A stretch of DNA of 64,000 nt, from contig NZ_PUIC01000003.1 in NCBI RefSeq assembly GCF_022750545.1, positions 1 to 64,000 of the forward strand, in the 5' to 3' direction. Every line of letters begins with the position of its first letter. Position 1 is the stretch's first letter. Of the stretch, positions 1-11,679 are shown piece after piece. The DNA comes from Caulobacter sp. CCUG 60055 (GTDB taxonomy: Bacteria; Pseudomonadota; Alphaproteobacteria; Caulobacterales; Caulobacteraceae). The notes beneath the pieces were generated by a model that was not told where the DNA came from, did no database searches, and saw only the letters and a program-made list of their open reading frames with translations. Position numbers and translations under genes: made by a program.

Positions 1-201
1 GGGGCCGTCCACATCTGCTATTTCGACGAGACCACCCGCAAGCGCGTGCTGGAGCGGCTGGCCGGCCTGCTGGCCGACGACGGCTATCTGGCGCTGGGGG
101 CCGGCGAGACGGCCATGGACGTCACCGAGGCCCTGCAGCCCGCGCCCGGCGCCCCCGGCGTCTATCGCCGCAATCCGCGGTTCCGCGCCGCGGCGGCCTG
201 A
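1..201 (+). CDS. cheR: CheR-type chemotaxis protein methyltransferase, C-terminal end (partial)
   Basis: Only the last 66 codons are present; the gene runs off the left edge and ends at TGA 199-201. The visible part has the pattern of the C-terminal end of CheR SAM-dependent glutamate methyltransferases: an ICYFDETTRKRVLERL stretch, then the GYLALGAGET strand-loop and a short YRRNPRF tail. CheR methylates chemoreceptor glutamates. The usual NVLIYFD motif appears here as HICYFD. The SAM-binding core and the N-terminal receptor-binding domain lie outside the window, so the assignment rests on a short segment. A chemoreceptor with a CheR-docking-like tail lies at 43.4 kb, but the two are not clustered. 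Confidence 0.7.
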   Translation, partial: GAVHICYFDETTRKRVLERLAGLLADDGYLALGAGETAMDVTEALQPAPGAPGVYRRNPRFRAAAA

Positions 202-207
202 CGCCGG

Positions 208-597
208 TCAGGGCAGGATCGTCATCTGGGTCTGGGTGACCAGCGCCGCCAGCCTTCCCGAGGCGTCGACGATCCGCGTCTGCCAGACCGAGGACCGCCG
301 CCCGACGTGCACGGGGGTCGCCTCGGCGGTGATCACCGCCCCGACGGCGACGGCGCCGAGAAAGTTGGTCTTGCTCTCGATGGTGGTCGTGCGCGCGCCC
401 TCCGGCAGGTTGAGGAACGCCCCCACCGCGCCGACCGTGTCGGCCAGCGACATGTAGACGCCGCCGTGCAGGATTCCGCCGGCCGTGCACAAGTCCTCGC
501 GCACCGTCAGCCGGCCCAGCACCCGCGTCGGGCCGGCCTCGACGATATCCACCCCCAACAGATCGGCGAACGGCAGGGATGGCGGGGCCTGGGTCAT
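208..597 (-). CDS. PaaI/YbgC-type hotdog-fold acyl-CoA thioesterase
   Basis: A 129-residue protein with the hotdog-fold thioesterase pattern. GGILHGGVYMSLADTVG carries the HGG motif and catalytic Asp region typical of PaaI-like acyl-CoA thioesterases, followed by TTTIESKTNFLGAV and the terminal TQTQMTIL strand. These cytosolic enzymes hydrolyse acyl- or aryl-CoA. The reading frame stays open for another 94 codons upstream, but the ATG at 597 has a good ribosome site (GAGGAG about 8 nt before) and matches family length. It is divergent from the P450 gene, with about 215 bp between. The substrate cannot be inferred. A second, different PaaI-type gene lies at 32040. Confidence 0.85.
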   Translation of the reverse strand: MTQAPPSLPFADLLGVDIVEAGPTRVLGRLTVREDLCTAGGILHGGVYMSLADTVGAVGAFLNLPEGARTTTIESKTNFLGAVAVGAVITAEATPVHVGRRSSVWQTRIVDASGRLAALVTQTQMTILP

Positions 598-811
598 GGC
601 GGTCTCCTCGTGGGCGGCCCCGGCATCGGGCCAGCCCGGCGCCGCTTTCGTCAATGACCTTGCAGGTAAGCCTCTTTGCTTCCCCCGCGTCACGCGCGCA
701 TTGTCGCCGTCGAGCCGCGCCAGACGGCGACACCAGGGAAGATCGAACGGGTTCCGGCGTCGGCCGCCAAAGGTCCGAATCGCCGGGCGCGACACGCCAG
801 GAGAGGATTCG

Positions 812-2125
812 ATGAGCGTCGCCGAACTATCGTCCGAGACAATTCCGCATGAGATCGCCGCGACGGTGATCGACCCCAAGGCCTATGCGCAGGACACGCC
901 CCTGCACGAGGCGATGCGCTGGCTGCGGGCCAACCAGCCGCTGGGCCGGGCCGAGCTGGACGGCGTCCGCCCGTTCTGGGTGGTGACCCGGCACGCCGAC
1001 ATCCTGGAGGTCAGCCGCCAGAACGCCCTGTTCCACAGCGGCGACCTGTCCACCACCTTCACCACCATCGAGGCCGACAGCAAGGTCAGGGCGATAACCG
1101 GCGGCAGCCCGCACCTCGTCCGCTCGCTGGTGCAGATGGACGCCCCCGACCATCCCAAGCACCGGGTGCTGACCCAGGCCTGGTTCCTGCCCCAGAACAT
1201 CCGCAAGCTGGAAGAGCGCATCCGCACCATCGCCCGCGAGCACGTCGACCGCATGGCGGCCTTGGCCGGCCCGGACGGGATCGGCGAGTGCGACTTCGTC
1301 GGCGACGTCGCCCTGACCTACCCGCTGCGGGTGATCATGGAGATCCTCGGCGTGCCCGAGTCCGACATGCCGCGCATGCTCAGGCTGACCCAGGAGCTGT
1401 TCGGCGCCCAGGACCCCGAGCTGAACCGCGCCCGCCAGGAGATGATGGACCACGCCGACGCCGTCCAGCAGATCCAGGCCGTGCTGGCCGACTTCTTCAT
1501 GTATTTCAAAAGCATCACCGACGACCGCAAGGCCTCGCCGCGCGACGACGTCGCCACGGTGATCGCCAACGGGGTCATCGACGGCGAACCGATCAGCGAC
1601 TTCGAGGCGATGAGCTACTACGTCATCGTCGCCACAGCCGGGCACGACACCACCTCGTCCTCGACCGCCGGCGGGGTGTGGGGGCTGTGCCGGCACCCCG
1701 ACCAGTTCGCCCGGGCCAAGGCCGATCCCGGCCTGATTCCCGGCCTGGTCGACGAGGCCATCCGCTGGACGACGCCGGTCAAGCACTTCATGCGCTCGGC
1801 GACCGAGGACTGCGAGCTGGGCGGGCGCAAGATCGCCAAGGGCGACTGGCTGTGGCTGGCCTATCCGTCCGGCAACCGCGACGAGGCGGTGTTCGCCGAC
1901 CCCGACGCCTTCCGCATCGACCGGTCGCCCAACAAGCACCTGGCGTTCGGCTACGGCGCGCACCTGTGCCTGGGCCAGCACCTGGCCAAGATGGAGATGC
2001 GCATCCTGTTCGAGGAGCTGCTGCCGCGCCTGGCCTCGCTGGAGCTGGCCGGCCCCCCGGCCCTGGCCGAGGCGGTGTTCGTGGGCGGCCCCAAGCATCT
2101 GCCCATCCGCTATCGGATCGCCTGA
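812..2125 (+). CDS. Cytochrome P450 monooxygenase
   Basis: A 437-residue soluble class I bacterial P450. The I-helix oxygen-binding motif AGHDTT is at about 276-281, the K-helix ExxR motif (EAIR) at 315-318, and the heme loop FGYGAHLCLG has the proximal ligand Cys386. Length is typical. The ATG at 812 follows GGAGAGGA; the open frame extends further upstream but without family-like sequence. It needs a ferredoxin and a ferredoxin reductase, and no redox partner is encoded nearby, so electrons must come from elsewhere. The product may hydroxylate a lipid, terpenoid or steroid-like substrate, but nothing adjacent narrows this down. Confidence 0.93.
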   Translation: MSVAELSSETIPHEIAATVIDPKAYAQDTPLHEAMRWLRANQPLGRAELDGVRPFWVVTRHADILEVSRQNALFHSGDLSTTFTTIEADSKVRAITGGSPHLVRSLVQMDAPDHPKHRVLTQAWFLPQNIRKLEERIRTIAREHVDRMAALAGPDGIGECDFVGDVALTYPLRVIMEILGVPESDMPRMLRLTQELFGAQDPELNRARQEMMDHADAVQQIQAVLADFFMYFKSITDDRKASPRDDVATVIANGVIDGEPISDFEAMSYYVIVATAGHDTTSSSTAGGVWGLCRHPDQFARAKADPGLIPGLVDEAIRWTTPVKHFMRSATEDCELGGRKIAKGDWLWLAYPSGNRDEAVFADPDAFRIDRSPNKHLAFGYGAHLCLGQHLAKMEMRILFEELLPRLASLELAGPPALAEAVFVGGPKHLPIRYRIA

Positions 2126-2140
2126 GCGTCCGGCCAAATG

Positions 2141-2168
2141 AAAACCCCGCCGCATCGCTGCGGCGGGG
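2141..2168 (-). terminator. Rho-independent terminator of the entericidin-like gene
   Basis: A 10-bp perfect GC-rich stem (2145-2154 with 2159-2168) has a 4-nt loop. On the minus strand it is followed by TTTT, so it terminates the small lipoprotein gene. It lies 19 bp after the P450 stop and could also slow readthrough from that side, though it lacks a U-tract there. Confidence 0.75.
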
Positions 2169-2234
2169 CGTCGGAGGCCCGCCCGTCGGGGGGGAGTGAA
2201 AGACGGGCCGTCCGATTCTCGCGATCGAGGCGCC

Positions 2235-2378
2235 CTACTTGGGCTTGGCGTCCTCGGCGGTTTGGGTCACGGCTTGGCCGGCGGCCTTCACGTCCTTGCC
2301 GGCCCCGGAGACAGTATTGCAGGCCGCCGTGGTCAGACCGGCGGCGACAACCATAAGAAGCATCAGTTTGCGCATCAT
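2235..2378 (-). CDS. ecnA: Entericidin A/B-family small lipoprotein
   Basis: A 47-residue protein: a short basic N-terminus, a hydrophobic stretch, the lipobox LTTAAC with lipidated Cys20, then a small polar tail (NTVSGAGKDVKAAGQAV) like the entericidin family. In enterobacteria entericidins form an antidote/toxin pair of membrane lipoproteins; in alphaproteobacteria a single copy is common and often stress-induced. Two consecutive ATGs exist (2378 and 2375); the upstream one is used here, preceded by AGGGGAAC. A sigma-EcfG-type promoter lies about 28 bp upstream, inside the 3' end of phyK, and a strong terminator follows. This places it in the general stress regulon by inference. Confidence 0.88.
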   Translation of the reverse strand: MMRKLMLLMVVAAGLTTAACNTVSGAGKDVKAAGQAVTQTAEDAKPK

Positions 2379-2405
2379 CAGTTCCCCTGAATTTTGCAGG
2401 ACAGG

Positions 2406-2431
2406 AACGCGCTACGCCGCCGCTTGGTTCC
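2406..2431 (-). promoter_or_regulatory. Predicted sigma-EcfG (SigT) promoter for the entericidin-like gene
   Basis: On the minus strand, GGAAC (2431-2427), a 17-bp spacer and CGTT (2409-2406). This matches the GSR promoter consensus of alphaproteobacteria exactly. Transcription would begin near 2398, about 20 nt before the ATG. The -35 element is inside the last codons of phyK, so the small gene can be transcribed independently of the kinase operon. Confidence 0.75.
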
Positions 2432-4160
2432 GCCGGCCGCGGGCTTCATTTGGCGCATCGGCCTTTTGACTTCGCCCGACATCGCGAATGTCCGGCGTCG
2501 GGAAAACCAGCCGCGCGGTGACGCCCCCCCGCTCGTTGGCGGTCAGCTCGGCCTGGCCGCGCAACTGGCGGGCGAAGGCGGTCATCAGGGTGCGGCCCAC
2601 CCCGCCGGCCTCGAGGTCCGGCGGCGGGCCGCCGCCCGCGTCGGAGATCTCCAGCACGGCCTCGTCGCCGTCGACCTTGAAGCGCACCGACAGCAACCCG
2701 CCGCGCCCGGCCAGGGCGTGCTTCTGGGCGTTGGAGATGGCCTCGACGGCGAACAGGGCCAGGGGCGCCAGCTTGTCGGGGTCGACGATCAGGTCGTCGG
2801 CCTCCAGCTCGGTGCGCACCACCACGCCGCGCGACTGGTCCGAGACCACCAGCTGGGCGATCAGCTCCTCCAGGAAGCGGCGGACGTCCACGCGCTTGAG
2901 GTCGCTGCCCTGGTAGAGCGCGCGGTAGATCAGGGCCAGGGCGGTGATCCGCTGGCAGGTGTCCGACATCGCCGCCCGCGCCGCCGGGTCGGCGAGCGCC
3001 CGCTGCTGCAGGTTGATCAGCGAGCTGATGACCTGGAGGTTGTTCTTCACCCGGTGATGGATCTCGCGCATCAGCGCGTCCTTCTGGGCCAGGGAATCGC
3101 GCAGGGAGTGGTCGCGGGCGACGATGGTCTCGGCCATCACCGCCAGGGTGTCGGCCAGGTCGCGGATCTCCGGCGGGGCGCGGTCGGCCTGGAGCGGGCG
3201 GACGGTGAAGCGTCCCCGCGCATAGATGGCGGCGATGCGCTGGAGGTACTGCAGCCAGCGCAGCACCACCCGGTCGGACACCACCCACACTGCCCCCAGC
3301 GCCACGGTGAAGGACAGCAGCGGGAAGATCACGCTCGACAGCGGATTGAGCTGGGCCCAGGATAGCACGCCCTGGGTCGGGGCCGACAGCACCACGAACA
3401 CCTCGCTGCCGACCAGCGGCGCGACCGTGAACATCCGCGTCTCGCCCTTGGCGTCGCGGCCGGTGTAGGTGAAGGCCCCCTGCTTGGCGGCGCGGCGGCC
3501 GGTGTCGGCCGGAGCGTTGGCGAAGGCCAGCGGGTCGGTGCGGGTGAGCAGCCGGCCGCTGGCGTCGGCCAGGGCGACCTCGGTGTGTTCGGGCAGGGCG
3601 GCGTCGACGGTGTCGGGGCGCAGGCTCGACAGGCGGATCACCGCCACCAGCGCTCCGTCGAAGGCGCCGGTGGCGTCCTCCGCCCGGGCGGCGGCCAGCA
3701 GCGAGGGGTCGGCGCCGAAATCGCCCGGCGGGGCCCGGGTGACGATCAGCCGCTCGCCGGCGCGCAGGCGCGAGAACCATTCCGAACGGCGGCGGTCGGG
3801 ATCGCCCGGCGTCGAGGCGGCGGCGCACGACACCCGGCCGATGGCGTCGAAGCGGATCAGGTTGGCGTAGCCCGGAACGGCGTCGACGACCTGGCCCAGG
3901 CGATGGGCGCATTGCACGCCGACGGCGTCGGGGGTCAGGGTCTGCAGCAGGACGTCGGCGGCCTCGACCCGGGCCCGCGCCGTGGCGGCGCTTCTTTGCG
4001 CGGCGAGGGCCAGGTTGGCCCGGCTTTCCTGGGCGTCCTTGCCGAAGGCGACCACGGACTGGACCGCGCCGAGGATCAGCACCGGCGCGAGCACCAGGGC
4101 CAGGGCCGGCCCGAGGCGAAAACGGATCGTGGTCAGCGGCCCCCACGCCAACCGTTTCAT
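2412..4160 (-). CDS. phyK: General stress response sensor histidine kinase PhyK (HisKA_2 family)
   Basis: A 582-residue membrane kinase. TM1 is at about 14-36, followed by a periplasmic sensor domain (about 40-270), TM2 at about 275-298, a HAMP-like linker (about 300-350), and the HisKA_2 dimerisation helix [20 protein letters not shown] with the phospho-acceptor at His368/369. A HATPase domain (N-box near ISNAQKHA, G-box DAGGG) completes it. In Caulobacter, PhyK phosphorylates PhyR to switch on the general stress response, and it is encoded beside sigT just as here. The start is 4 nt after the sigT stop, so nepR-sigT-phyK is a compact operon. What the periplasmic domain senses cannot be read from sequence. 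Confidence 0.92.
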
Positions 4161-4164
4161 GACG

Positions 4165-4779
4165 TCACCTGACCGTGCTTACCCTCTCCGCATCGGCGAG
4201 AATGGCCCGCATGGCGTCGCCGGCCGGGCGGCCGTCCCGATCATAGTCGCCGCCCTCCAGCACCACCGCCAGCGCCTTGCGGGCGCGGCTGACGCGGCTC
4301 TTCACCGTACCGACCGCGCAGCCGCAGATCTCGGCCGCCTCCTCGTAGGCGAACCCGCCGGCGCCGACCAGCACCAGGGCTTCGCGTTGCTCGGCCGGCA
4401 GCATGGCCAGGCCAAGCCTCAGCTCGTCGAGGGCGATGGGCGCCTGCGGGTCGTCCACCGCCACCAGGGTCCGCTCGGCGGCCTCCTGGTCGAGCTGGGT
4501 CTGGCGCCAGGACCGGCGCTTTTCGGAATAGAACTGATTGCGCAGGATCATGAAGGTCCAGGCCTTCATGTTCGTGCCCATCTGATAGCTGGCCCGTGCG
4601 TCCCAAGCCTTCAGCATGGCGTCCTGCGCCAGGTCGTCGGCCGAGGCCGCGTCGCCCGCCAGGGTGCGGGCGAAGGCGCGCAGGTGCGGGATCAGCTGGA
4701 CGAGTTCGCGTTTGAAGGCGGCTTCCTGGGCCGGATCGGCCTGGGGCTTCGAGGGCGCGGCGTTCTGAGACGTCGTCAT
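4165..4779 (-). CDS. sigT: ECF sigma factor of the general stress response (SigT/EcfG)
   Basis: A 204-residue ECF15-type sigma factor. Region 2 spans about 25-95 ([20 protein letters not shown], then [19 protein letters not shown] for promoter melting). Region 4 spans about 135-180 ([11 protein letters not shown], then [26 protein letters not shown], the -35-binding helix-turn-helix). It directs RNA polymerase to GGAAC-N16/17-CGTT promoters. NepR holds it inactive, and phosphorylated PhyR sequesters NepR. The ATG at 4779 overlaps the nepR stop (TGATG), which implies translational coupling between sigma and anti-sigma factor. The frame extends upstream only through nepR-antisense sequence, so the later start was chosen. 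Confidence 0.96.
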
Positions 4780-4967
4780 CAATCGCGATCCGCCCGCTTT
4801 TCGTCCGCCCGCTTGAGAATATCCAGGAATTCGTCGGGGACGGGCTCGTTGACCACCTGGTCGAACATCTGGCGCAGCTTGACGCCGATAGCCTGCTGCC
4901 GCAACCGCGCCTCGTCTAGAGACGGATCTGGCCTGCGACGCTGTCCCATATAGGTCTGCTCGATCAT
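4779..4967 (-). CDS. nepR: Anti-sigma factor NepR
   Basis: A 62-residue protein with the NepR core: two helices around IGVKLRQMFDQVVNEPVPDEFLDILKRAD, which clamp EcfG and are captured by PhyR. Length is normal for this short family. The first gene of a three-gene operon, it overlaps sigT by one base. The ATG at 4967 is the start; a TTG at 5030 in the same frame lies inside the predicted -10 element and would be at or before the transcript start, so it is excluded. An upstream sigma-EcfG promoter makes the operon self-activating. Confidence 0.93.
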   Translation of the reverse strand: MIEQTYMGQRRRPDPSLDEARLRQQAIGVKLRQMFDQVVNEPVPDEFLDILKRADEKRADRD

Positions 4968-5028
4968 CTTGTCGGCGTCGTGCGGCGAGGAAACGCCGTC
5001 CCCTCGAACTGTTCTGGGTTCGTCGCTC

Positions 5029-5053
5029 AACGCGCGGCCGCCTATCTTGTTCC
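5029..5053 (-). promoter_or_regulatory. Predicted sigma-EcfG promoter for nepR-sigT-phyK
   Basis: On the minus strand, GGAAC (5053-5049), 16 bp, CGTT (5032-5029). Expected start near 5022, giving a leader of about 55 nt before nepR. Autoregulation of nepR-ecfG by its own sigma factor is the family norm. It faces away from the phyR box, with 38 bp between the two -35 elements. Confidence 0.85.
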
Positions 5054-5091
5054 CCGGTCCGATATGTACAATGCAAAATCCGAGCCGCGAG

Positions 5092-5117
5092 GGAACTCCC
5101 TTCGTGCAGCGGGCGTT
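5092..5117 (+). promoter_or_regulatory. Predicted sigma-EcfG promoter for phyR
   Basis: GGAAC (5092-5096), 17 bp, CGTT (5114-5117). Expected transcription start near 5124, about 70 nt before the phyR ATG. An exact consensus match, divergent from the nepR promoter. Confidence 0.85.
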
Positions 5118-5195
5118 CAATATCGTTGCGTCTTGCGCGACGCGGGCGCTCAATGCGCCCTGGTACAGTCGAAGACCTGGAGATCGGGAGGGGTC

Positions 5196-5990
5196 ATGAG
5201 TCTTCTTGCCCGTTTGGCGCCGCACCTGCCCTACGTCCGCCGCTACGCGCGCGCGTTGACCGGCGATCAGGCCACGGGAGATCATTACGTACGGGTGGCC
5301 CTCGAAGCCCTGGCCGCGGGCGAACGCTCGCTGGAAGACCGCTACAGCCCCCGCGTCGCCCTCTACCATGTCTTCCACGCCATCTGGTGCACCAGCGGCG
5401 CGCAGTTGGAGGACGCTCCCGAGGAGGACGTCGCCGGCGACGCCAGCCGCCGGCTGATGCGGATCGCGCCGCGTTCGCGCCAGGCGTTCCTGCTCACCGC
5501 CCTGGAGGGCTTCACCCCCAGCGAGGCGGCCCAGATCCTCGACGTCGACTTCGACGAGGTCGACGCCCTGATCAGCCGCGCCCAGAGCGAGATCGACGCC
5601 GAACTGGCCACCGACGTGCTGATCATCGAGGACGAGCCGGTGATCGCCGCCGACATCGAGGCGCTGGTGCGCGAGCTGGGACACAACGTCCTCGACATCG
5701 CCGCCACCCGCACCGAGGCGGTGGAGGCGGTCAACCGGCGCCTGCCCGGCCTGGTGCTGGCCGACATCCAGCTGGCCGACGGCTCGTCGGGCATCGACGC
5801 GGTGAAGGACATCCTCGGCCGGCTCGACGTGCCGGTGATCTTCATCACCGCCTTCCCCGAGCGGCTGCTCACCGGCGAGCGGCCCGAACCGACCTTCCTG
5901 ATCACCAAGCCGTTCCAGCCGGAGACGGTGAAGGCGGCCATCGGCCAGGCCCTGTTCTTCCATCCGGCCCGCCGCCGGGAAGCCGCCTGA
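5196..5990 (+). CDS. phyR: General stress response regulator PhyR (sigma-like domain plus receiver)
   Basis: A 264-residue protein. The N-terminal sigma-factor-mimic domain (about 1-135) includes an ECF-like region 4 (PRSRQAFLLTALEGFTPSEA). The C-terminal receiver domain (about 140-258) starts VLIIEDEP, with phospho-acceptor Asp190 in VLADIQLADG and the conserved Lys238 in FLITKPF. When phosphorylated by PhyK or related kinases, the receiver releases the sigma-like domain, which binds NepR and frees SigT. The ATG at 5196 follows GGGAGGGG; the open frame continues upstream but crosses the promoter. Divergent from nepR-sigT-phyK, as in Caulobacter. Confidence 0.96.
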   Translation: MSLLARLAPHLPYVRRYARALTGDQATGDHYVRVALEALAAGERSLEDRYSPRVALYHVFHAIWCTSGAQLEDAPEEDVAGDASRRLMRIAPRSRQAFLLTALEGFTPSEAAQILDVDFDEVDALISRAQSEIDAELATDVLIIEDEPVIAADIEALVRELGHNVLDIAATRTEAVEAVNRRLPGLVLADIQLADGSSGIDAVKDILGRLDVPVIFITAFPERLLTGERPEPTFLITKPFQPETVKAAIGQALFFHPARRREAA

Positions 5991-6028
5991 GGGGCCGGGA
6001 AAAGCGAAGCCCAGAGAAATAGCGCCAG

Positions 6029-6054
6029 GGAACCGGCGCGACCGGCGCCGGGTT
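6029..6054 (+). promoter_or_regulatory. Predicted sigma-EcfG-type promoter for the first DUF1328 gene
   Basis: GGAAC (6029-6033), 17 bp, GGTT (6051-6054). The -35 is exact; the -10 has G in place of the first C, the least conserved base. Start expected near 6061, about 45 nt ahead of the ATG. Confidence 0.6.
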
Positions 6055-6107
6055 GTTCCTCGCCAGCGGCCGCGATCGGCGCGGCCGCGTCACGAGGACG
6101 TTACGCC

Positions 6108-6281
6108 ATGCTCGGCTGGGCCTTGATCTTTGCGGTGCTCGCCGTCGCGGCGGGCTTTCTCGGCTTCGTCGGCCTGGCCGGCGTCGCCGCATCGATCGCC
6201 AAGCTGCTGTTCGTGCTGTTCCTGGTGCTGTTGATCGGCGGCTTCGTGATCCGGGCGTTTCGCGGCGACTCGGTCGTCTAG
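6108..6281 (+). CDS. DUF1328 (YtjA-like) small membrane protein
   Basis: A 57-residue protein that is almost entirely two hydrophobic helices: MLGWALIFAVLAVAAGFLGF, a small turn with GLAGVAASIAK, then LLFVLFLVLLIGGFVIRAF. This is the DUF1328/YtjA signature. These inner-membrane proteins have no settled function but are repeatedly found among stress-induced genes. The GSR-type promoter upstream and the phyR neighbour fit that. A paralogue with the same architecture lies at 9709-9879, also behind a GSR-type promoter. It converges with the small membrane gene that ends 5 bp downstream. Confidence 0.9.
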   Translation: MLGWALIFAVLAVAAGFLGFVGLAGVAASIAKLLFVLFLVLLIGGFVIRAFRGDSVV

Positions 6282-6285
6282 GCGC

Positions 6286-6552
6286 TCAGCACCGTTCGAA
6301 GAAGGCCTGGCAATGGCCCGCCAAGCGGCGGTCGCCGCTGGCGGCGGGCGAGCGGCCGGTGACGGCGGCGTCCGGCGTGAGGGTCTGCTCGGCGTCGCGC
6401 AGGGCGCGGTAGTGGAAGGCCCAGCTGCCGAAAAGGGCGCTCATCGCCAGGGCGATGGAGATCAGCATCACCCAGAACATGTGCCGCCCCCACGAAGCCT
6501 GTCGGGTGCGCGTGGCGCTGAGGCCCGACGAACGCCGGAACGCGGTGGTCAT
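6286..6552 (-). CDS. Hypothetical small membrane protein (88 aa)
   Basis: I do not recognise a family. The protein has a basic N-terminus (MTTAFRRSSGLSATRTR), one likely transmembrane helix at about residues 25-45 (MFWVMLISIALAMSALFGSW) and a polar C-terminal half ending in GHCQAFFERC with two cysteines. The ATG at 6552 is supported by a very strong ribosome site (GGAGGAGG). It converges on the DUF1328 gene with 4 bp between stops. A degenerate GSR-like promoter (GAAAC, 17 bp, CGTT) lies about 55 bp upstream on the same strand but has one mismatch in the critical -35. It is probably another small stress-linked envelope protein. Confidence 0.7.
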   Translation of the reverse strand: MTTAFRRSSGLSATRTRQASWGRHMFWVMLISIALAMSALFGSWAFHYRALRDAEQTLTPDAAVTGRSPAASGDRRLAGHCQAFFERC

Positions 6553-6684
6553 GGCCGCCTCCTCCGATTCGCCTTCGATGTTTCGCCGTCGTCCGGCGCT
6601 CGTTGGAAACGCGCGCGCCGCCGCGGCCGTTTCGCACCCCGGCGAGGCCGCGACGCGATCGCGAAGAAATTTTTGAGAATCGGC

Positions 6685-6709
6685 GGAACCGTGCGCGGCC
6701 GGCGACGTT
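6685..6709 (+). promoter_or_regulatory. Predicted sigma-EcfG promoter driving a small RNA
   Basis: GGAAC (6685-6689), 16 bp, CGTT (6706-6709): an exact consensus match. No start codon with a plausible ORF follows. Instead, transcription would begin at about 6716, which is the first base of a strong nested inverted repeat. Confidence 0.75.
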
Positions 6710-6715
6710 GTCTGA

Positions 6716-6834
6716 TTGCGGAGACGGCGACGCCCCCCCGACTTGAGACCGGCGATACGCCGGTCTGCCGTCTCCGCAACCCTTATTCTCGATGATGCAC
6801 GACTGGGCGGACCGGCTTACGGCCCGCCCGTTTT
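6716..6834 (+). ncRNA. gsrN: Candidate GSR-controlled small RNA, GsrN-like
   Basis: About 115 nt directly after an exact sigma-EcfG promoter and ending in an intrinsic terminator. There is a 13-bp perfect inverted repeat (6716-6728 with 6767-6779). Between its arms lie an unpaired stretch with seven consecutive C (6733-6739) and a 9-bp hairpin with a 3-nt loop (6746-6754 with 6758-6766) stacked against the outer arm. Caulobacter GsrN is a SigT-dependent sRNA with an exposed C-rich loop that base-pairs with mRNA leaders such as katG. Position in the GSR locus, promoter, C-rich loop and terminator all agree. Identity as GsrN is inference from memory of that RNA, not from an alignment. Confidence 0.65.
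6805..6834 (+). terminator. Rho-independent terminator of the candidate small RNA
   Basis: A 10-bp stem (6805-6814 with 6820-6829) with one A-C mismatch and a 5-nt loop, followed by GTTTTC. It ends 12 bp before the stop of the convergent OmpA-like gene. Confidence 0.7.
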
Positions 6835-6845
6835 CTTGCGCGGCC

Positions 6846-7304
6846 TCAGCTGGCGAAGTGGACCTGCACCTCGGCCCGGCGGCGCAACGGCCGCTCGGTC
6901 CCGCGCTTGGTGACCGCGCCCTGCTCGCCGACGGCGTCGACGTCCACGGCCGGCGCTGGGAAGCCCTTGTCGGTCAGGGCCTTGGCCACAGCCTCGGCCC
7001 GTCGCTTGGAAAGCTCGAGGTTCTGTTCGGCCGACCCCTTGGCGCCCGACAGCCCGACCACCGTCACCGCGCCGACCCGGCAGGCCTTCGACCGGGCGGC
7101 CGAATCGGAGATCACCTGCAGGGCCGCGTCGGTCAGGTCGGCCGACCATTCCTTGAAATAGACCGGGAAGCTGAAGTCCGCGCACGGCGACGGCGCGGCG
7201 ACCTTGCTCGAATGCATCCAGGCCGGCGTCGTCTCGCAGCCCGAGACCAGCACGCCCAACCCAGCCGCGACCGCCGTCGCTCCAAGGATCTTCCGTCGCC
7301 ACAT
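6846..7304 (-). CDS. OmpA-like lipoprotein
   Basis: A 152-residue outer-membrane lipoprotein candidate. The signal peptide ends in the lipobox LVSGC (Cys23), and the mature part contains an OmpA-like peptidoglycan-binding fold: VTVVGLSGAKGSAEQN, then LSKRRAEAVAKALTDKG, the usual N-x2-LS-x2-RA-x2-V-x3-L core. This class tethers the outer membrane to peptidoglycan. The ATG at 7304 follows GGGAGACGGGG; 40 upstream codons in the same frame look like shadow sequence. It lies downstream of the small-RNA terminator on the opposite strand. I see no GSR-type promoter for it. Confidence 0.85.
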   Translation of the reverse strand: MWRRKILGATAVAAGLGVLVSGCETTPAWMHSSKVAAPSPCADFSFPVYFKEWSADLTDAALQVISDSAARSKACRVGAVTVVGLSGAKGSAEQNLELSKRRAEAVAKALTDKGFPAPAVDVDAVGEQGAVTKRGTERPLRRRAEVQVHFAS

Positions 7305-7396
7305 AGCCCCGTCTCCCGATACGCGCCCGCTAAAAGAATAGGGCGGCCAGCCGACCGGCTCGCCGCCCCGAAACCTCGCGCCTGACGGCGCAAAGC

Positions 7397-7750
7397 TCAA
7401 TAGCGCGGTTGACCGTTCTCCCAATAATAACGTCCGGTTGCCTGATCGAAATAGTAATAACGGCCGGCGCGCTCGTCATAATATTGCTTGCGATTGGTCG
7501 CGCCGCAGCCGCCGTCCTGGCGACAGCCGCGCACGGCCCCGGCCGCCCCGCCGACGGCGGCGCCGATGGCCGCGCCCTTGCCGGCGTCGCCGTTGCCCAC
7601 GTTATTGCCGATCACCGCCCCCGCCAGGGCTCCCAGCGCCGCGCCGCCGGCGGCGTTGCGCTCGACATTGCCGCTCGACGTGCAGGCGGCGACGAGCAGC
7701 CCTGCAGCGACGATCGCCGCCGCCGGTCTCCAGACAATCCTGATGGTCAT
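7397..7750 (-). CDS. Glycine-zipper lipoprotein
   Basis: A 117-residue protein. A signal peptide with lipobox LVAAC (Cys23) precedes a glycine-zipper segment (about 35-70: GGAALGALAGAVIGNNVGNG, then GKGAAIGAAVGGAAGA). The tail is rich in Tyr (KQYYDERAGRYYYFDQATGRYYW), resembling proteins labelled glycine-zipper or YMGG-like in alphaproteobacteria. Glycine zippers pack membrane helices or form surface oligomers. The start at 7750 was chosen because it opens the signal peptide. An exact sigma-EcfG promoter precedes it by about 57 bp. Confidence 0.85.
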   Translation of the reverse strand: MTIRIVWRPAAAIVAAGLLVAACTSSGNVERNAAGGAALGALAGAVIGNNVGNGDAGKGAAIGAAVGGAAGAVRGCRQDGGCGATNRKQYYDERAGRYYYFDQATGRYYWENGQPRY

Positions 7751-7806
7751 CGATGCGGTCCTTCTCGTTACGCTCTGGATTTCACGCCCCGCGCCCTGTC
7801 GCGGAC

Positions 7807-7832
7807 AACGCGTCGATCCGCCGGGCCGTTCC
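7807..7832 (-). promoter_or_regulatory. Predicted sigma-EcfG promoter for the glycine-zipper lipoprotein
   Basis: On the minus strand, GGAAC (7832-7828), 17 bp, CGTT (7810-7807). Start expected near 7800. Its -35 is only 7 bp from the -35 of the divergent promoter for the lipid kinase gene. Confidence 0.75.
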
Positions 7833-7839
7833 ATCGCCG

Positions 7840-7864
7840 GGAACCGCCGGCGCGGCTCGCCGTT
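7840..7864 (+). promoter_or_regulatory. Predicted sigma-EcfG promoter for the lipid kinase operon
   Basis: GGAAC (7840-7844), 16 bp, CGTT (7861-7864). Start expected near 7871, about 53 nt before the ATG at 7924. It is back to back with the promoter of the glycine-zipper gene. Confidence 0.75.
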
Positions 7865-7923
7865 AGGCCAGGACGCGCCCCGACCGGGGCCGCCGTCGGG
7901 GACCGCCAGCCGAAAGCCGCGAG

Positions 7924-8856
7924 ATGACGCTCGAAACGGAAAGCCCGCCGTCGACGGAACGCCCAAAGCTCCGCCGGGTGGCCGCCGTGGTCAACCCGTA
8001 CTCGGGCGGGGTCGGCCCGCACGCCGCCGACCAGCTGGAGGCGCTGTTGGCCGACGCCGGCCTGGACGCCCATGTCGCCGCGCCCGGACACGAGCGGCTG
8101 CAGGCGGCGCTGCAGGCGGCGATCGCCGATCGGCCAGACCTGCTGATCGTGCTGGCCGGCGACGGCACCGCGCGCGCCGCCGCCGCCCTGTGCGGACCCG
8201 CAGGGCCGCTGCTGGCCCCATTGCCCGGCGGCACCATGAACATGTTGCCCAAGGCGCTGTACGGCGAACGGCGCTGGCAGGCGGCGCTGCATGAGATTCT
8301 CGACCATGGCGTCGTGCGGCCGGTAAGCGGCGGCGAGGCGGACGGCCGCGCCTTCTACGTGGCCGCCGTGCTCGGCGCTCCCGCCCTATGGGCCCCCGCG
8401 CGCGAGGCGGCGCGCGACCGCAAGCTGCGGCTGGCCGTGCTGCGGGCGCAGCGGGCGGTGCGCCAGGCCTTTTCCGGCCGCGTCCGCTACGCCCTCGACG
8501 GCGAGGGGCACGAGAAGGCCGAGGCCCTGACCTTCGTCTGCCCGCTGGTGTCCAGGGCCATGCACGCCGAGACCGCGCTGGAGGCGGCGGCCGTCAATCC
8601 GTCGGGACCGCAGGACGTGCTGCGCCTGGGGGTCCGGGCCTTCTTCGGCGACCTGTTCGGCGACTGGCGCGACGACCCCGCCGTCAGCCTGGGCCGGTGC
8701 CGTGCGGCCCACGTCTGGGCGCGGCGCTGGATTCCCGCCACCCTGGACGGCGAGCCGGCGCGGCTGCCGCGCGACGTGCGGGTGCGTTTCGTTCCCCTGG
8801 CCTTCCACGCCCTGGTCCCGCCGCCGGAAGCGGCGCCCGAGACGCCGGAGACATGA
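7924..8856 (+). CDS. Diacylglycerol/sphingosine kinase-family lipid kinase
   Basis: A 310-residue DAGK catalytic-domain protein. VVNPYSGGVG is the nucleotide-binding N-terminal motif, LIVLAGDGTARAAA holds the GDGT core, and APLPGGTMNMLPKAL matches the conserved PGGTxN segment. These cytosolic enzymes phosphorylate diacylglycerol or related lipids with ATP. The stop overlaps the ATG of the phosphoesterase gene (ATGA), so the two are co-translated. An exact sigma-EcfG promoter lies upstream, which suggests stress-induced membrane lipid turnover. The lipid substrate is unknown. Confidence 0.88.
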   Translation: MTLETESPPSTERPKLRRVAAVVNPYSGGVGPHAADQLEALLADAGLDAHVAAPGHERLQAALQAAIADRPDLLIVLAGDGTARAAAALCGPAGPLLAPLPGGTMNMLPKALYGERRWQAALHEILDHGVVRPVSGGEADGRAFYVAAVLGAPALWAPAREAARDRKLRLAVLRAQRAVRQAFSGRVRYALDGEGHEKAEALTFVCPLVSRAMHAETALEAAAVNPSGPQDVLRLGVRAFFGDLFGDWRDDPAVSLGRCRAAHVWARRWIPATLDGEPARLPRDVRVRFVPLAFHALVPPPEAAPETPET

Positions 8857-9644
8857 TCCGGCTGCTGCACGCGTCCGACATCCATTTCGGCTGCGAGAAC
8901 CACGAGGCGGTCGAGGCCGCCGCCGCCTTCGCCCGCTCGGGCGGCTTCGACCTGATCGTCCTCACCGGCGACCTGACCCAGAACGGCCGCCGCCGGGAGT
9001 TCGAGGCCGCCGCCGGGTGGCTGGCCGGCCTGCCCCGCCCGTGGATCGCCACGCCGGGCAACCACGACACGCCCTATCTGAACCTCGCCGCGCGGCTCAT
9101 CGCCCCGTTCGCCGCCTATGGGCGGGCCACGGGCCGGCCCGCCCGCGACCAGACCTTCGCCGCCCCCGGCCTATGCCTGCGCGCCGCCAACACCGCCCGG
9201 GGGGCGCAGGCGCGGCTGAACTGGTCGAAGGGCGCGATCGGCTTCGGCCAGATCGCCGCGGCCGAGGCCGCCTTCGCCGCCGCGCCGGCCGGCGCCCTGA
9301 AGGTGTTCGCCTGTCACCATCCCCTGACCGAGGCCCTGGGCGCGCCGATGACCGGGCGGGTGCGCGGCGGGCGACAGGCGGCCCGGCGGCTGAACCTCGC
9401 CGGCGCCGACCTGATCCTCACCGGCCACGTCCACATCCCGTTCGTCGCGCCCGCGCCGTTCGGCGATGGGCGCACCTACGCCGTCGGCGCGGGGACCCTG
9501 TCGCGGCGCGAGCGGGGGGCGCCGGCCGGGTTCAACGTCGTCGAGGCCGACGCCGCGACCATCGCCGTCACAGCCTACGGCTGGAACGGCCGGGACTTCA
9601 CGCCGTGGCGCGCCTGGGCCTCGCCCCGGCGCGGCGCCGGTTGA
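8853..9644 (+). CDS. Calcineurin-like metallophosphoesterase
   Basis: A 263-residue protein with the full set of calcineurin-type metal-binding motifs in order: DIHFG (near residue 9), GDLTQNG, GNHDT, CHHPLTE and GHVH (near 190). These enzymes use a two-metal centre to hydrolyse phosphomono- or diesters; the substrate cannot be deduced. The start overlaps the lipid kinase stop by 4 nt. Together the pair could phosphorylate and dephosphorylate lipids or lipid head groups, but this is inference from gene order. Transcription is likely from the GSR promoter at 7840. Confidence 0.88.
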   Translation: MIRLLHASDIHFGCENHEAVEAAAAFARSGGFDLIVLTGDLTQNGRRREFEAAAGWLAGLPRPWIATPGNHDTPYLNLAARLIAPFAAYGRATGRPARDQTFAAPGLCLRAANTARGAQARLNWSKGAIGFGQIAAAEAAFAAAPAGALKVFACHHPLTEALGAPMTGRVRGGRQAARRLNLAGADLILTGHVHIPFVAPAPFGDGRTYAVGAGTLSRRERGAPAGFNVVEADAATIAVTAYGWNGRDFTPWRAWASPRRGAG

Positions 9645-9650
9645 ACGCGA

Positions 9651-9677
9651 AAACGCCCCGGCCGTCGACCGGGGCGT
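9651..9677 (-). terminator. Terminator between the phosphoesterase and DUF1328 genes
   Basis: A 9-bp perfect stem (9653-9661 with 9669-9677) and a 7-nt loop. On the minus strand it leads into GTTTTC, so it mainly serves the DUF1328 gene, while its position 8 bp after the phosphoesterase stop may make it work both ways. Confidence 0.65.
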
Positions 9678-9708
9678 CGTATTCGCTCGCCTGGATGGCT
9701 GGTCCGCC

Positions 9709-9879
9709 TCAGGGCGTGCGCCCGCGCACCAGATGCATGACCAGCGAGACCAAGAACAGGATCACGAAGATATAGAATAGAATCTTGGCGACCCCGATAG
9801 CCGCGCCGGCGATCGTCGTAAACCCGAGAACCGCGGCCACCAGGGCCACGACGAGAAAAATAAGCGCCCATCTGAGCAT
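9709..9879 (-). CDS. Second DUF1328 (YtjA-like) small membrane protein
   Basis: A 56-residue paralogue of the gene at 6108: [20 protein letters not shown], a GAAIGVAKI turn, and a second hydrophobic helix [19 protein letters not shown], with a basic RGRTP end. Two membrane helices; function unknown. The ATG at 9879 follows GGGAGAA. A sigma-EcfG-type promoter lies about 71 bp upstream, beyond the intervening leader, and a terminator follows. Having two stress-promoter copies of this family within 4 kb is notable. Confidence 0.88.
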
Positions 9880-9949
9880 TTCAGTTCTCCCAAGAAACCT
9901 GAGGCTCTGGCGGCGCCTATCCTTTCGGCGCCGCCCCGCTCTTCTGATA

Positions 9950-9975
9950 AACGTCCGAACGGGGCGGGGTGTTCC
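9950..9975 (-). promoter_or_regulatory. Predicted sigma-EcfG promoter for the second DUF1328 gene
   Basis: On the minus strand, GGAAC (9975-9971), 17 bp, CGTT (9953-9950). It sits 12 bp after the sodB stop, giving the DUF1328 gene its own promoter and a leader of about 65 nt. Confidence 0.72.
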
Positions 9976-9987
9976 TTCATCTATTGA

Positions 9988-10629
9988 TCAGGCGGCCTTG
10001 GCCTTGGGCTCGGGATAGCGCCAGCCCTCGCCCTGGCCGGCGGCCGAGGCGAACTGGACGGCGGCGAACTCCCAGTTGGCGAGGGTGTCGAACCAGGTCT
10101 CCAGGAAGCCCTTCCGGTTGTTCTGGTGATCCAGGTAGTAGGCGTGCTCCCACAGGTCGCAGACCAGCAGCGGCGTCACGCCGGCCTCGGTGACGGTGTC
10201 GGCGGCGTCATGGGTCGAGATCACCTTGAGGGCTCCGCCCTCGGCGACCAGCCACACCCAGCCCGAGGCGAAGTGGCCGACGCCTTCGGTCACGAAAGCG
10301 GTCTTCAACTGCTCCAGGCCGCCGAAGGCCGTGTCGATGGCGGCGGCCAGGGCGCCCGAGGGCGCCTGCCGGGCCGGGGCCATGCTGTTCCAGAAGAAGG
10401 CGTGGTTCCAGGCCTGGGCCGAGTTGTTGAACAGCTTGGCGTCCTTGCCCGCCGACGCGCGGATGACCTCTTCGAGGCTGGCGTAGCCCTGGCCGGACTT
10501 CTGCACCAGCTCGTTGGTGACGTTGACATAGGCCGCATGGTGCTTGTCGTGGTGGAACTCCATGGTGCGGCGGGAGATCACCGGCTCCAACGCGTCGTGC
10601 GCGTAGGGAAGGTCGGGCAGTTCGAACAT
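9988..10629 (-). CDS. sodB: Iron superoxide dismutase
   Basis: A 213-residue Fe/Mn superoxide dismutase. Metal ligands are visible: His26 in EFHHDKHHAAYV, the His of AQAWNHAFFW, and Asp and His in VCDLWEHAYYLDHQN. The AQAWNHAFFW signature and N-terminus FELPDLPYA favour the iron type. It converts superoxide to peroxide and oxygen in the cytosol. The ATG at 10629 has GGAGG upstream; 16 further codons are open but unlikely. It sits among GSR-type genes yet has no GSR-type promoter itself; a hairpin with a T-tract lies just 24 bp upstream. Confidence 0.96.
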   Translation of the reverse strand: MFELPDLPYAHDALEPVISRRTMEFHHDKHHAAYVNVTNELVQKSGQGYASLEEVIRASAGKDAKLFNNSAQAWNHAFFWNSMAPARQAPSGALAAAIDTAFGGLEQLKTAFVTEGVGHFASGWVWLVAEGGALKVISTHDAADTVTEAGVTPLLVCDLWEHAYYLDHQNNRKGFLETWFDTLANWEFAAVQFASAAGQGEGWRYPEPKAKAA

Positions 10630-10652
10630 GGGGGAGGACTCCGCTCTACATG

Positions 10653-10688
10653 AAAACGCGCCGCCCCCGGCGAGCAACCGGCGGGCGG
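10653..10688 (-). terminator. Probable terminator of the YqjD/YqjE-like pair
   Basis: A GC-rich hairpin (10661-10670 with 10678-10688, one bulge) followed on the minus strand by CGCGTTTTC. It would end the upstream two-gene operon. As it is only about 24 bp before the sodB start, it could instead sit in a sodB leader. Confidence 0.5.
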
Positions 10689-10718
10689 TGGGAAAGGTTG
10701 CGCCGTCGGCGACCCGGC

Positions 10719-11117
10719 TCAGGATTTAGGGGGCGACCTGCCATCCATAAAGGCCCGCAGCACCACGCCGACCAGTTGTGGGTTGCGCAGGGCGATGAGG
10801 CCGGCGGCGATGGCTGCCCCGGCGCTGACCACGGGCTTGTCGCGAACGAGGTTCATGGCCAGGTCGATCAGCCCGGCCGCGTCGGCGTGCTTGGGGGCGT
10901 GGCGGTCGCGGCCTTCGGTCTTGCGCGCGGCGAAGAAGCCGGCGACGGCGACGACCAGGGCGAACACCGCCGCGACCACGGCGGCGGCCCCAGCCGAGCT
11001 CAGCGGCCCCTGCAGCAACGCATAGAGGGCGAAGGCGGCGGCGGCGACACTGATCGCGGCGGCGGCGGCGACTGCCGCGGCCGCCGCCAGGGCCATCAGC
11101 GTACGTTCGACGATCAA
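10719..11117 (-). CDS. YqjE/holin-like small membrane protein
   Basis: A 132-residue, Ala/Val-rich protein with two probable transmembrane helices in the first half (about 8-38 and 43-65), then a basic linker (RKTEGRDRHAPKH) and a third weakly hydrophobic segment. It resembles the phage-holin/YqjE family that follows DUF883/YqjD proteins. The reading frame opens with TTG, overlapping the upstream stop as TTGA, which suggests translational coupling; an ATG seven codons later (11096) is the alternative. In E. coli the yqjD-yqjE genes are stationary-phase induced, and the GSR-type promoter ahead of this pair is a parallel. Confidence 0.7.
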   Translation of the reverse strand: MIVERTLMALAAAAAVAAAAAISVAAAAFALYALLQGPLSSAGAAAVVAAVFALVVAVAGFFAARKTEGRDRHAPKHADAAGLIDLAMNLVRDKPVVSAGAAIAAGLIALRNPQLVGVVLRAFMDGRSPPKS

Positions 11118-11440
11118 CGGTTACGGCTGCCGGCGACGAGCAGGCCGACCAGGAAACCGACGCCGAGCGCGGTGAGGGTGGACGTCCACGGACGCTCCTT
11201 CACCTGGTCGGCGACCACGCGCTGGGCGACGTCGAAGCGTTCGCCGACGTCGCCGGAGCGGCTGCGCAGGGCTTCCAGCCCTTCGTGCACCGCCTTTTCG
11301 ATGCGGCGGGCCGCATCGTTGAACGAACGTTCGGCCTTGTCGGACGCGTGGTGCGCCGCGCTGGAGACGGCGTCGGCGGCCTTTTCGGCGGCGTCGGAGA
11401 TGTTGTCGGCGGCGTGGTTGAGGCGGGACTCGGCGGGCAT
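11114..11440 (-). CDS. DUF883/YqjD-ElaB-like membrane-anchored protein
   Basis: A 108-residue protein: a long amphipathic, Ala/Asp/Glu-rich helical N-terminal region (residues 1-80: AADNISDAAEKAADAVSSAA and on), the VKERPWTSTLTALGVGFLVGLLV C-terminal membrane anchor, and a short basic SRNR end. The ERPW-x-G/L pattern and single C-terminal TM helix are typical of DUF883 (YqjD/ElaB), which anchor ribosomes or stress factors at the inner membrane in E. coli. The ATG at 11440 follows GGAG. An exact sigma-EcfG promoter is 53 bp upstream. Confidence 0.82.
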   Translation of the reverse strand: MPAESRLNHAADNISDAAEKAADAVSSAAHHASDKAERSFNDAARRIEKAVHEGLEALRSRSGDVGERFDVAQRVVADQVKERPWTSTLTALGVGFLVGLLVAGSRNR

Positions 11441-11492
11441 GAAAAATCTCCGGTCGTGCGGCGCGGTCATGCGGCGTGTGGGACGAGCGATC

Positions 11493-11518
11493 AACGCGAC
11501 GCCGGCGCCCAAGGTTCC
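11493..11518 (-). promoter_or_regulatory. Predicted sigma-EcfG promoter for the YqjD/YqjE-like pair
   Basis: On the minus strand, GGAAC (11518-11514), 17 bp, CGTT (11496-11493). Start expected near 11486, about 46 nt before the ATG. An exact consensus match. Confidence 0.75.
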
Positions 11519-11679
11519 AGCGTCGCGGGCCACCATAGCGTGTTTTCACTCGCGCCCAAGCCCGCTCATGACGGTTGGATTTTAAGTTATCGTGACCGCG
11601 AAGCGTCCGCGTGCGCCCCATTTGACGCGAAGCGCTACCTTTGTCCGCGACGCGCGCTATGGTGGATCGAGTGTGAACG

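Follow-up and report, generated by a model that had tools for sequence, protein, structure and literature searches.

A gsrN small RNA gene behind phyR in a Caulobacteraceae genome in which katG was not found

The 64,000-nucleotide stretch of DNA analysed here (the window) carries, 0.7 kb behind phyR and on the same strand, what we take with a probability of about 0.9 to be a Caulobacteraceae gsrN gene, driven by EcfG under stress and acting through pairing of its C-rich loop with mRNAs. The kind of RNA is itself already known, and Caulobacteraceae homologues of GsrN, typically near the GSR locus, have been reported (PMC5869019, cited throughout for the accessible part of its text). The window gene is a newly added member of this central stress-response RNA family, of the sort that protein-only annotation misses, in a species where the only proven target was not found. 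Its interest lies in this missing katG together with the variable seed half of the family: what GsrN is conserved for can be asked cleanly in a katG-less species, and relatives in which the 5' half has changed provide natural variants with which to pursue it. The features discussed below are as follows.

4165..4779, minus strand: ecfG-type sigma factor gene, expected reader of the gsrN promoter (Pfam Sigma70_r2, Sigma70_r4_2)
4779..4949, minus strand: nepR, anti-sigma (Pfam NepR)
5196..5990, plus strand: phyR, GSR anti-anti-sigma, upstream neighbour (Pfam, synteny)
6685..6689, plus strand: -35 element GGAAC of the EcfG (SigT) promoter (exact in 124/124 readable relatives)
6706..6709, plus strand: -10 element CGTT, spacer 16 (three or more of the four bases in 123/124 relatives)
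6718..6834, plus strand: gsrN RNA, putative start and end (RF01529 match 6720-6829)
6718..6728, plus strand: outer stem, 5' arm (predicted fold, pair counts; the DNA repeat reaches 6716)
6729..6745, plus strand: one-sided loop GACG-C7-GACTTG, predicted seed, with C7 at 6733-6739 (fold, family census)
6746..6766, plus strand: 9-bp inner hairpin 6746-6754 / 6758-6766 with an ATA loop, directly next to the outer 3' arm (fold, covariation)
6767..6777, plus strand: outer stem, 3' arm (fold, pair counts; the DNA repeat reaches 6779)
6786..6798, plus strand: exposed 3' segment TTCTCGATGATGC (sequence, motif search)
6804..6834, plus strand: predicted intrinsic terminator, hairpin 6804-6830 and T4 6831-6834 (predicted fold)

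Identification of the Locus as gsrN

A covariance model search assigns the locus to Rfam family RF01529 ('CC3552') at 77.1 bits, clearly above the cut-off of 50, and thereby bears out an earlier note on this DNA that had proposed a GsrN-like small RNA here and alignment with a covariance model as a check; by sequence, fold, promoter and position, the locus is a GsrN orthologue. The host genome holds one RF01529 copy. The window matches the model over its full length (positions 1-106 of 106) with the same stacked architecture, spanning 110 nt for the 106 model positions, with a longer inner hairpin loop and a longer terminator loop. A second model, R1, built from 103 sequences with the window included among them, scores 107.4 bits on 6718-6836.

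That RF01529 is GsrN is very probable, and the identification rests on published landmarks because the name CC3552 does not occur in the accessible part of PMC5869019. This source describes an RNA of about 100 nt, a deletion spanning 59-106, ends at C53, T54 and T64, a tolerated aptamer insertion at nt 37, and a loop of six C with which the first seven bases of katG mRNA pair. In the two best-scoring Caulobacter-type members of RF01529 (L003 and L004), taken as the GsrN type, the three ends fit jointly at one of 13 starts tested, the same in both: the G of GCGAAGG, 8 nt past the -10. In this frame the loop of the inner hairpin contains nt 37, and the terminator stem ends at nt 106. When the GsrN numbering was applied to a different set of loci, L111 alone fitted, at another start. 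The 7-nt loop complement GTCGGGG is found in the katG leaders of the L003 and L004 genomes (L188, L189), in agreement with PMC5869019.

Compared on this basis with GsrN of C. crescentus (ccna_R0081), the window RNA shares the GSR promoter, a +1 eight nt past the -10 (judged from L003 and L004), a closed 5' stem with a C-rich one-sided loop (C6 there, C7 here), an inner hairpin stacked on the outer arm, an exposed 3' segment (TTCTCGATGATGC in the window versus GTTGATGC in L003 and L004) and a terminator. It differs in position, as the C. crescentus gene lies distal to the GSR locus (PMC5869019), and in host, as katG, the proven target in C. crescentus, was not found in the window's genome. Putative GsrN-like RNAs have also been proposed in Rhizobiaceae, with a GSR promoter, a place near the GSR locus and an exposed 5'-proximal loop according to PMC5869019; no sequence relation to them was found in our samples of 398 order and 385 class genomes.

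Genomic Neighbourhood

The gene order in the window is ecfG (minus), nepR (minus), phyR (plus), a DUF1328 gene (plus), an 88-codon ORF without Pfam match (minus) and gsrN (plus), followed on the 3' side by an OmpA-family gene (6846-7304, minus), a glycine-zipper gene (minus) and a DAG kinase gene (plus). Adjacency to nepR and phyR suggests the role of the sigma factor as EcfG. The distance of 1.5 kb from phyR that had been claimed holds when measured from the phyR start (5196) and shrinks to 0.7 kb from its stop (5990).

Proximity to phyR, nepR and ecfG, as seen here, is typical but not universal in the GsrN family. The neighbours were scored in at least 119 loci. Where 2.5 kb or more of upstream sequence is available (74 loci), a phyR on the same strand precedes gsrN in 72, the exceptions being L055 and L115; where 2.5 kb or more is available downstream (86 loci), OmpA follows in 55. 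Of 31 other loci, five have no phyR match within 1.5 kb upstream; L003 and L004 belong to these, and the trait is not unique to them because L015, L025 and L031 share it, yet it is in line with the reported distal position of C. crescentus gsrN. In L003 and L004, which show no phyR nearby, gsrN is likewise adjoined by the glycine-zipper/DAG kinase pair.

Promoter and Transcription Start

A sequence pattern scan confirms the exact sigma-EcfG promoter that the earlier note had read from 6685, GGAAC-N16-CGTT, directly upstream of gsrN and at the spacing of the family. Our census of promoters and C tracts covers all 125 RF01529 matches in genomes of the taxonomic family, 124 of them readable upstream: GGAAC is exact in every readable stretch, the -10 element keeps at least three of its four bases in 123, and both elements are exact in 66. 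Among these 123 relatives, the spacer is 16 in 106 and the distance from the -10 to the stem is 8 or 9 nt in 121. At least 8 of the 9 bases are reached by 40 of 2480 positions drawn at random from the same upstream DNA, some of them overlapping the promoters.

The start had been predicted at 6716, the first base of the inverted repeat. Homology with the mapped GsrN start moves the probable +1 to 6718, 8 nt past the -10, a distance found in 95 of the 123 relatives; the RNA end is likewise a prediction. With this start the outer stem of the RNA would have 11 bp and the RNA a length of about 112-117 nt, close to the 115 nt first estimated.

GGAAC-N16-18-CGTT occurs at eight sites in the window where 0.93 are expected, a number that 0 of 100 shuffles reach, with a cluster at 4165-11518. 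Six of the eight precede recognised genes: nepR-ecfG (5029, minus), phyR (5092, plus), gsrN (6685, plus), the glycine-zipper gene (7807, minus), the DAG kinase gene (7840, plus) and a DUF1328 gene (9950, minus). The match at 11493 (minus) falls inside the start of ORF 11114-11536, for which a later start would be needed, and the one at 2406 (minus) sits at the 3' end of a histidine kinase gene. Between the glycine-zipper and DAG kinase genes, two divergent matches stand 7 nt apart (7807-7864). Read by eye, a near-match, GGAAC-N16-GGTT at 6030-6054, lies ahead of the DUF1328 gene at 6108-6281; the GGTT variant of the -10 also precedes several gsrN relatives.

RNA Architecture and Covariation

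The structural elements named in the earlier note are present in the window: a perfect 13-bp inverted repeat (6716-6728 / 6767-6779), the only one with a gap of 3-60 nt in the 64 kb; seven consecutive C between the two stems, here placed in a one-sided loop; the 9-bp hairpin; and the terminator. Direct stacking of the inner hairpin on the outer arm, which had been thought unusual, is the arrangement of the RF01529 consensus itself. The stretch 6716-6834 has a predicted folding energy of -60.8 kcal/mol against -39.5 (sd 3.9) for shuffled sequences, of which 0 of 200 fold as well. In this fold, in line with the pair counts, the outer stem encloses the loop and the inner hairpin, and C7GACTTG (6733-6745) puts an unpaired C-rich loop, followed by GAC, near the 5' end; the first six C are unpaired with predicted probabilities of 0.95-0.98 and the seventh with 0.46.

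For the relatives we used an alignment (A1) in which each distinct sequence of the first 60 nt is represented once, giving 103 of 150 loci; the invariance of its loop is partly by construction, at least 119 of the source loci having been picked by the loop pattern. With the window's own fold as the structure for the pair counts, 95.1% of stem cells are paired, compared with 31-58% when the structure is slid along the sequences, and 119 cells are changed on both sides, compared with 38 (sd 8.9) after shuffling. Changes on both sides occur at 10 of the 20 pairs of the two stems and at 7 of the 9 of the inner hairpin; five outer pairs are invariant, and 78 of the 103 sequences leave the last inner-hairpin pair open. 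The number of further pair types, 23 against 20.9 in shuffles, is not exceptional (52 of 500 shuffles reach 23). As judged from these sequence comparisons, both stems covary across relatives, which speaks for an RNA. The earlier statement that no ORF fits was loose in its wording, as open frames at 6313-6795 (plus), 6549-6779 (minus) and 6716-6913 (plus) cross the locus.

These data bear on two readings that would remove the RNA or its action in trans. A promoter match arisen by chance beside a functionless inverted repeat could be imagined, given that 0.93 matches to GGAAC-N16-18-CGTT are expected per window, and we regard it as practically negligible in view of the fold (z = -5.5), the match to a curated family, and the conservation of promoter and position across that family. 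Scarcely more probable is a cis-acting element, whether leader, riboswitch or attenuator: an attenuator can indeed take the form of a strong 5' structure with a terminator behind it, but the next recognised gene downstream, that of the OmpA family, is on the opposite strand, and the one Rfam family that reaches its gathering score anywhere in the window, RF01529, is a family of sRNAs.

Distribution Across Relatives

Of the 199 genomes in our sample of the taxonomic family, 125 have an RF01529 match, 119 of them above the cut-off. At the order level 72 of 398 genomes match, all in Caulobacteraceae among the matches listed, and at the class level R1 matches 3 of 385 genomes, again all Caulobacteraceae and one of them the window's own. 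Of the 74 family genomes that lack an Rfam match, 43 were searched with R1, which matches 4 of these. The C tract is directly followed by GAC in 123 of the 125 family members and by GACTTGA in 100, and its length is 7 in 62 members, 8 in 35, 6 in 20, 9 in 5, and 4, 5 and 14 in one each. The loop with 14 consecutive C (L279, genome G107), set against 6-9 in 122 of the 125, is either a slippage-prone tract or an assembly error. The 3' motif CTCGATGATG is present in 69 of the 125.

Second, weak RF01529 matches (35-37 bits) in four Brevundimonas-type genomes (G150, G154, G158 and G483) lack both the GSR promoter and the loop and were set aside; by eye we read them as coding and pyrB-like. Genome G077 likewise has a second weak match. 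Genus labels here and below are inferred (g22, Caulobacter-type; g3, Brevundimonas-type; g6, Phenylobacterium-type).

Proposed Mechanism and the Question of Targets

In the mechanism that we propose, PhyR would free EcfG from NepR under stress, and the freed EcfG would start transcription at 6718 and yield an RNA of about 115 nt, whose 5' half would fold into a closed stem holding the one-sided loop with C7-GACTTG. What follows is modelled on C. crescentus, for which endonucleolytic cleavage yielding a stable 5' form, and an effect of Hfq, are described (PMC5869019), and from which we infer stress induction, processing, the part of Hfq and regulation by base-pairing in the window's species: the C loop would pair with G-rich sites in mRNAs and alter their translation or stability, cleavage within the outer 3' arm of the 5' domain would leave a stable 5' form, and Hfq would protect the full-length one.

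A GSR-induced RNA of the GsrN family might instead act mainly by binding a protein such as Hfq through its C-rich loop or 3' segment. Conservation of the loop past the C tract, into the GACTTGA that follows it in 100 of the 125 members, would suit such a role, as would the missing katG and the retention of the 3' segment where the 5' half is not kept. In C. crescentus, however, compensatory mutations in loop and katG restore function, and a silver-stained pull-down gave no significant protein difference (both in the accessible part of PMC5869019), so that we consider protein binding as the main activity unlikely, if distinctly less so than the two readings dismissed above, and retain pairing of the loop with mRNAs as the preferred one.

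The target suggested by the earlier note, katG, does not carry over. A TIGR00198 search finds no katG in the window's genome (99.99% complete), the same search finding it in the C. vibrioides control, and hence no complementary katG leader and no GsrN-katG circuit of the C. crescentus kind was found in this genome. It follows that katG cannot be the reason why the C loop is kept here and that the targets must be others. Since katG was also not found in 31 of the 125 genomes with gsrN, a katG-independent role of GsrN in the window's species is likely. The 199 family genomes divide into 94 with both genes, 31 with gsrN only, 27 with katG only and 47 with neither, giving an odds ratio of 5.3 that is confounded by kinship and assembly gaps; this co-occurrence runs against a katG-free reading, although kinship may explain it.

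The katG leaders of 43 distinct genomes (146 nt leading up to and including the aligned start, with starts approximate) contain TCGGGG in 3 of 22 in g22, 0 of 10 in g3, 0 of 5 in g6, 1 of 5 in g21 and 0 of 1 in g19. The shorter GGGG occurs in 14 of the 22 Caulobacter-type leaders (g22) versus 7 of 21 others, and katG pairing thus looks lineage-specific; it occurs in 17 of 34 leaders from genomes with gsrN and in 4 of 9 from genomes without, and so the G4 tract of katG leaders does not follow gsrN.

Candidate targets in the window's genome were sought in two places, and none was identified among the CAAGTCGGGG sites read or in the leader of the PF00199 catalase. The genome has one such catalase, with no G4 tract within 140 nt of its likely start; in the 300 nt examined, G4 tracts lie only at least 142 nt before it. 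The predicted duplex with the loop reaches -20.7 kcal/mol when it uses the stretch back to 150 nt and -14.7 kcal/mol nearer the start; we found nothing convincing in this leader and set it aside. Besides gsrN itself, CAAGTCGGGG occurs at six sites, five of which look coding by eye and none like a leader (L156 left out), and a control pattern is more frequent in the same genome (20 versus 7 sites).

On balance, with even odds by our estimate, activation of katG may be a use of GsrN confined to certain lineages, while across the family the RNA would regulate another set of mRNAs, for which alone the window's katG-less species would keep it; the gene would then be a stress-wired chassis of promoter, place behind phyR and 3' half, carrying an exchangeable 5' seed half of the kind seen in some Brevundimonas-type genomes.

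Relatives with a Changed 5' Half

Neither katG-less hosts nor exchanged 5' halves were found reported in the accessible part of PMC5869019, within a narrow literature search. Two Brevundimonas-type genomes without an RF01529 match, G106 (L346) and G179 (L342), have an exact GSR promoter behind phyR and the usual 3' half (TTTCTCGATGATGCGACTT and terminator), joined to a 5' half that is unrelated and has no C4 tract. In G126 (L343) and G197 (L369), the GSR promoter is exact and the 3' part is of the GsrN type, and a C4-C5 tract is set in different sequence, as it is in several further genomes. An upstream phyR was confirmed for all four of these loci. L423 (genome G486) has an apparently replaced 5' half between an exact GSR promoter and a 3' part of the GsrN type.

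The motif TTCTCGATGATGC was found at 33 sites in 18 of 20 genomes. Among the 30 sites read, one each in G000, G106, G126, G179 and G197, and in these genomes only, has a GSR promoter; most of the remaining sites look coding by eye, often in a glmS-like context, and the motif was rejected as a family-wide signal. We also built a model of the 3' part from 35 sequences, four of which are the variants of G106, G179, G126 and G197; alignment A2 was selected via its 3' motif. In 44 regions, comprising 40 of the lower-scoring matches of this model and the four variants, the C tract is directly followed by GAC or GAT in 27, C4 or longer stands between other flanks in 13 (L423 among them), 2 have no C4 and 2 are unreadable. 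Across the Brevundimonas-type genus, the 3' model matches 120 of 131 genomes.
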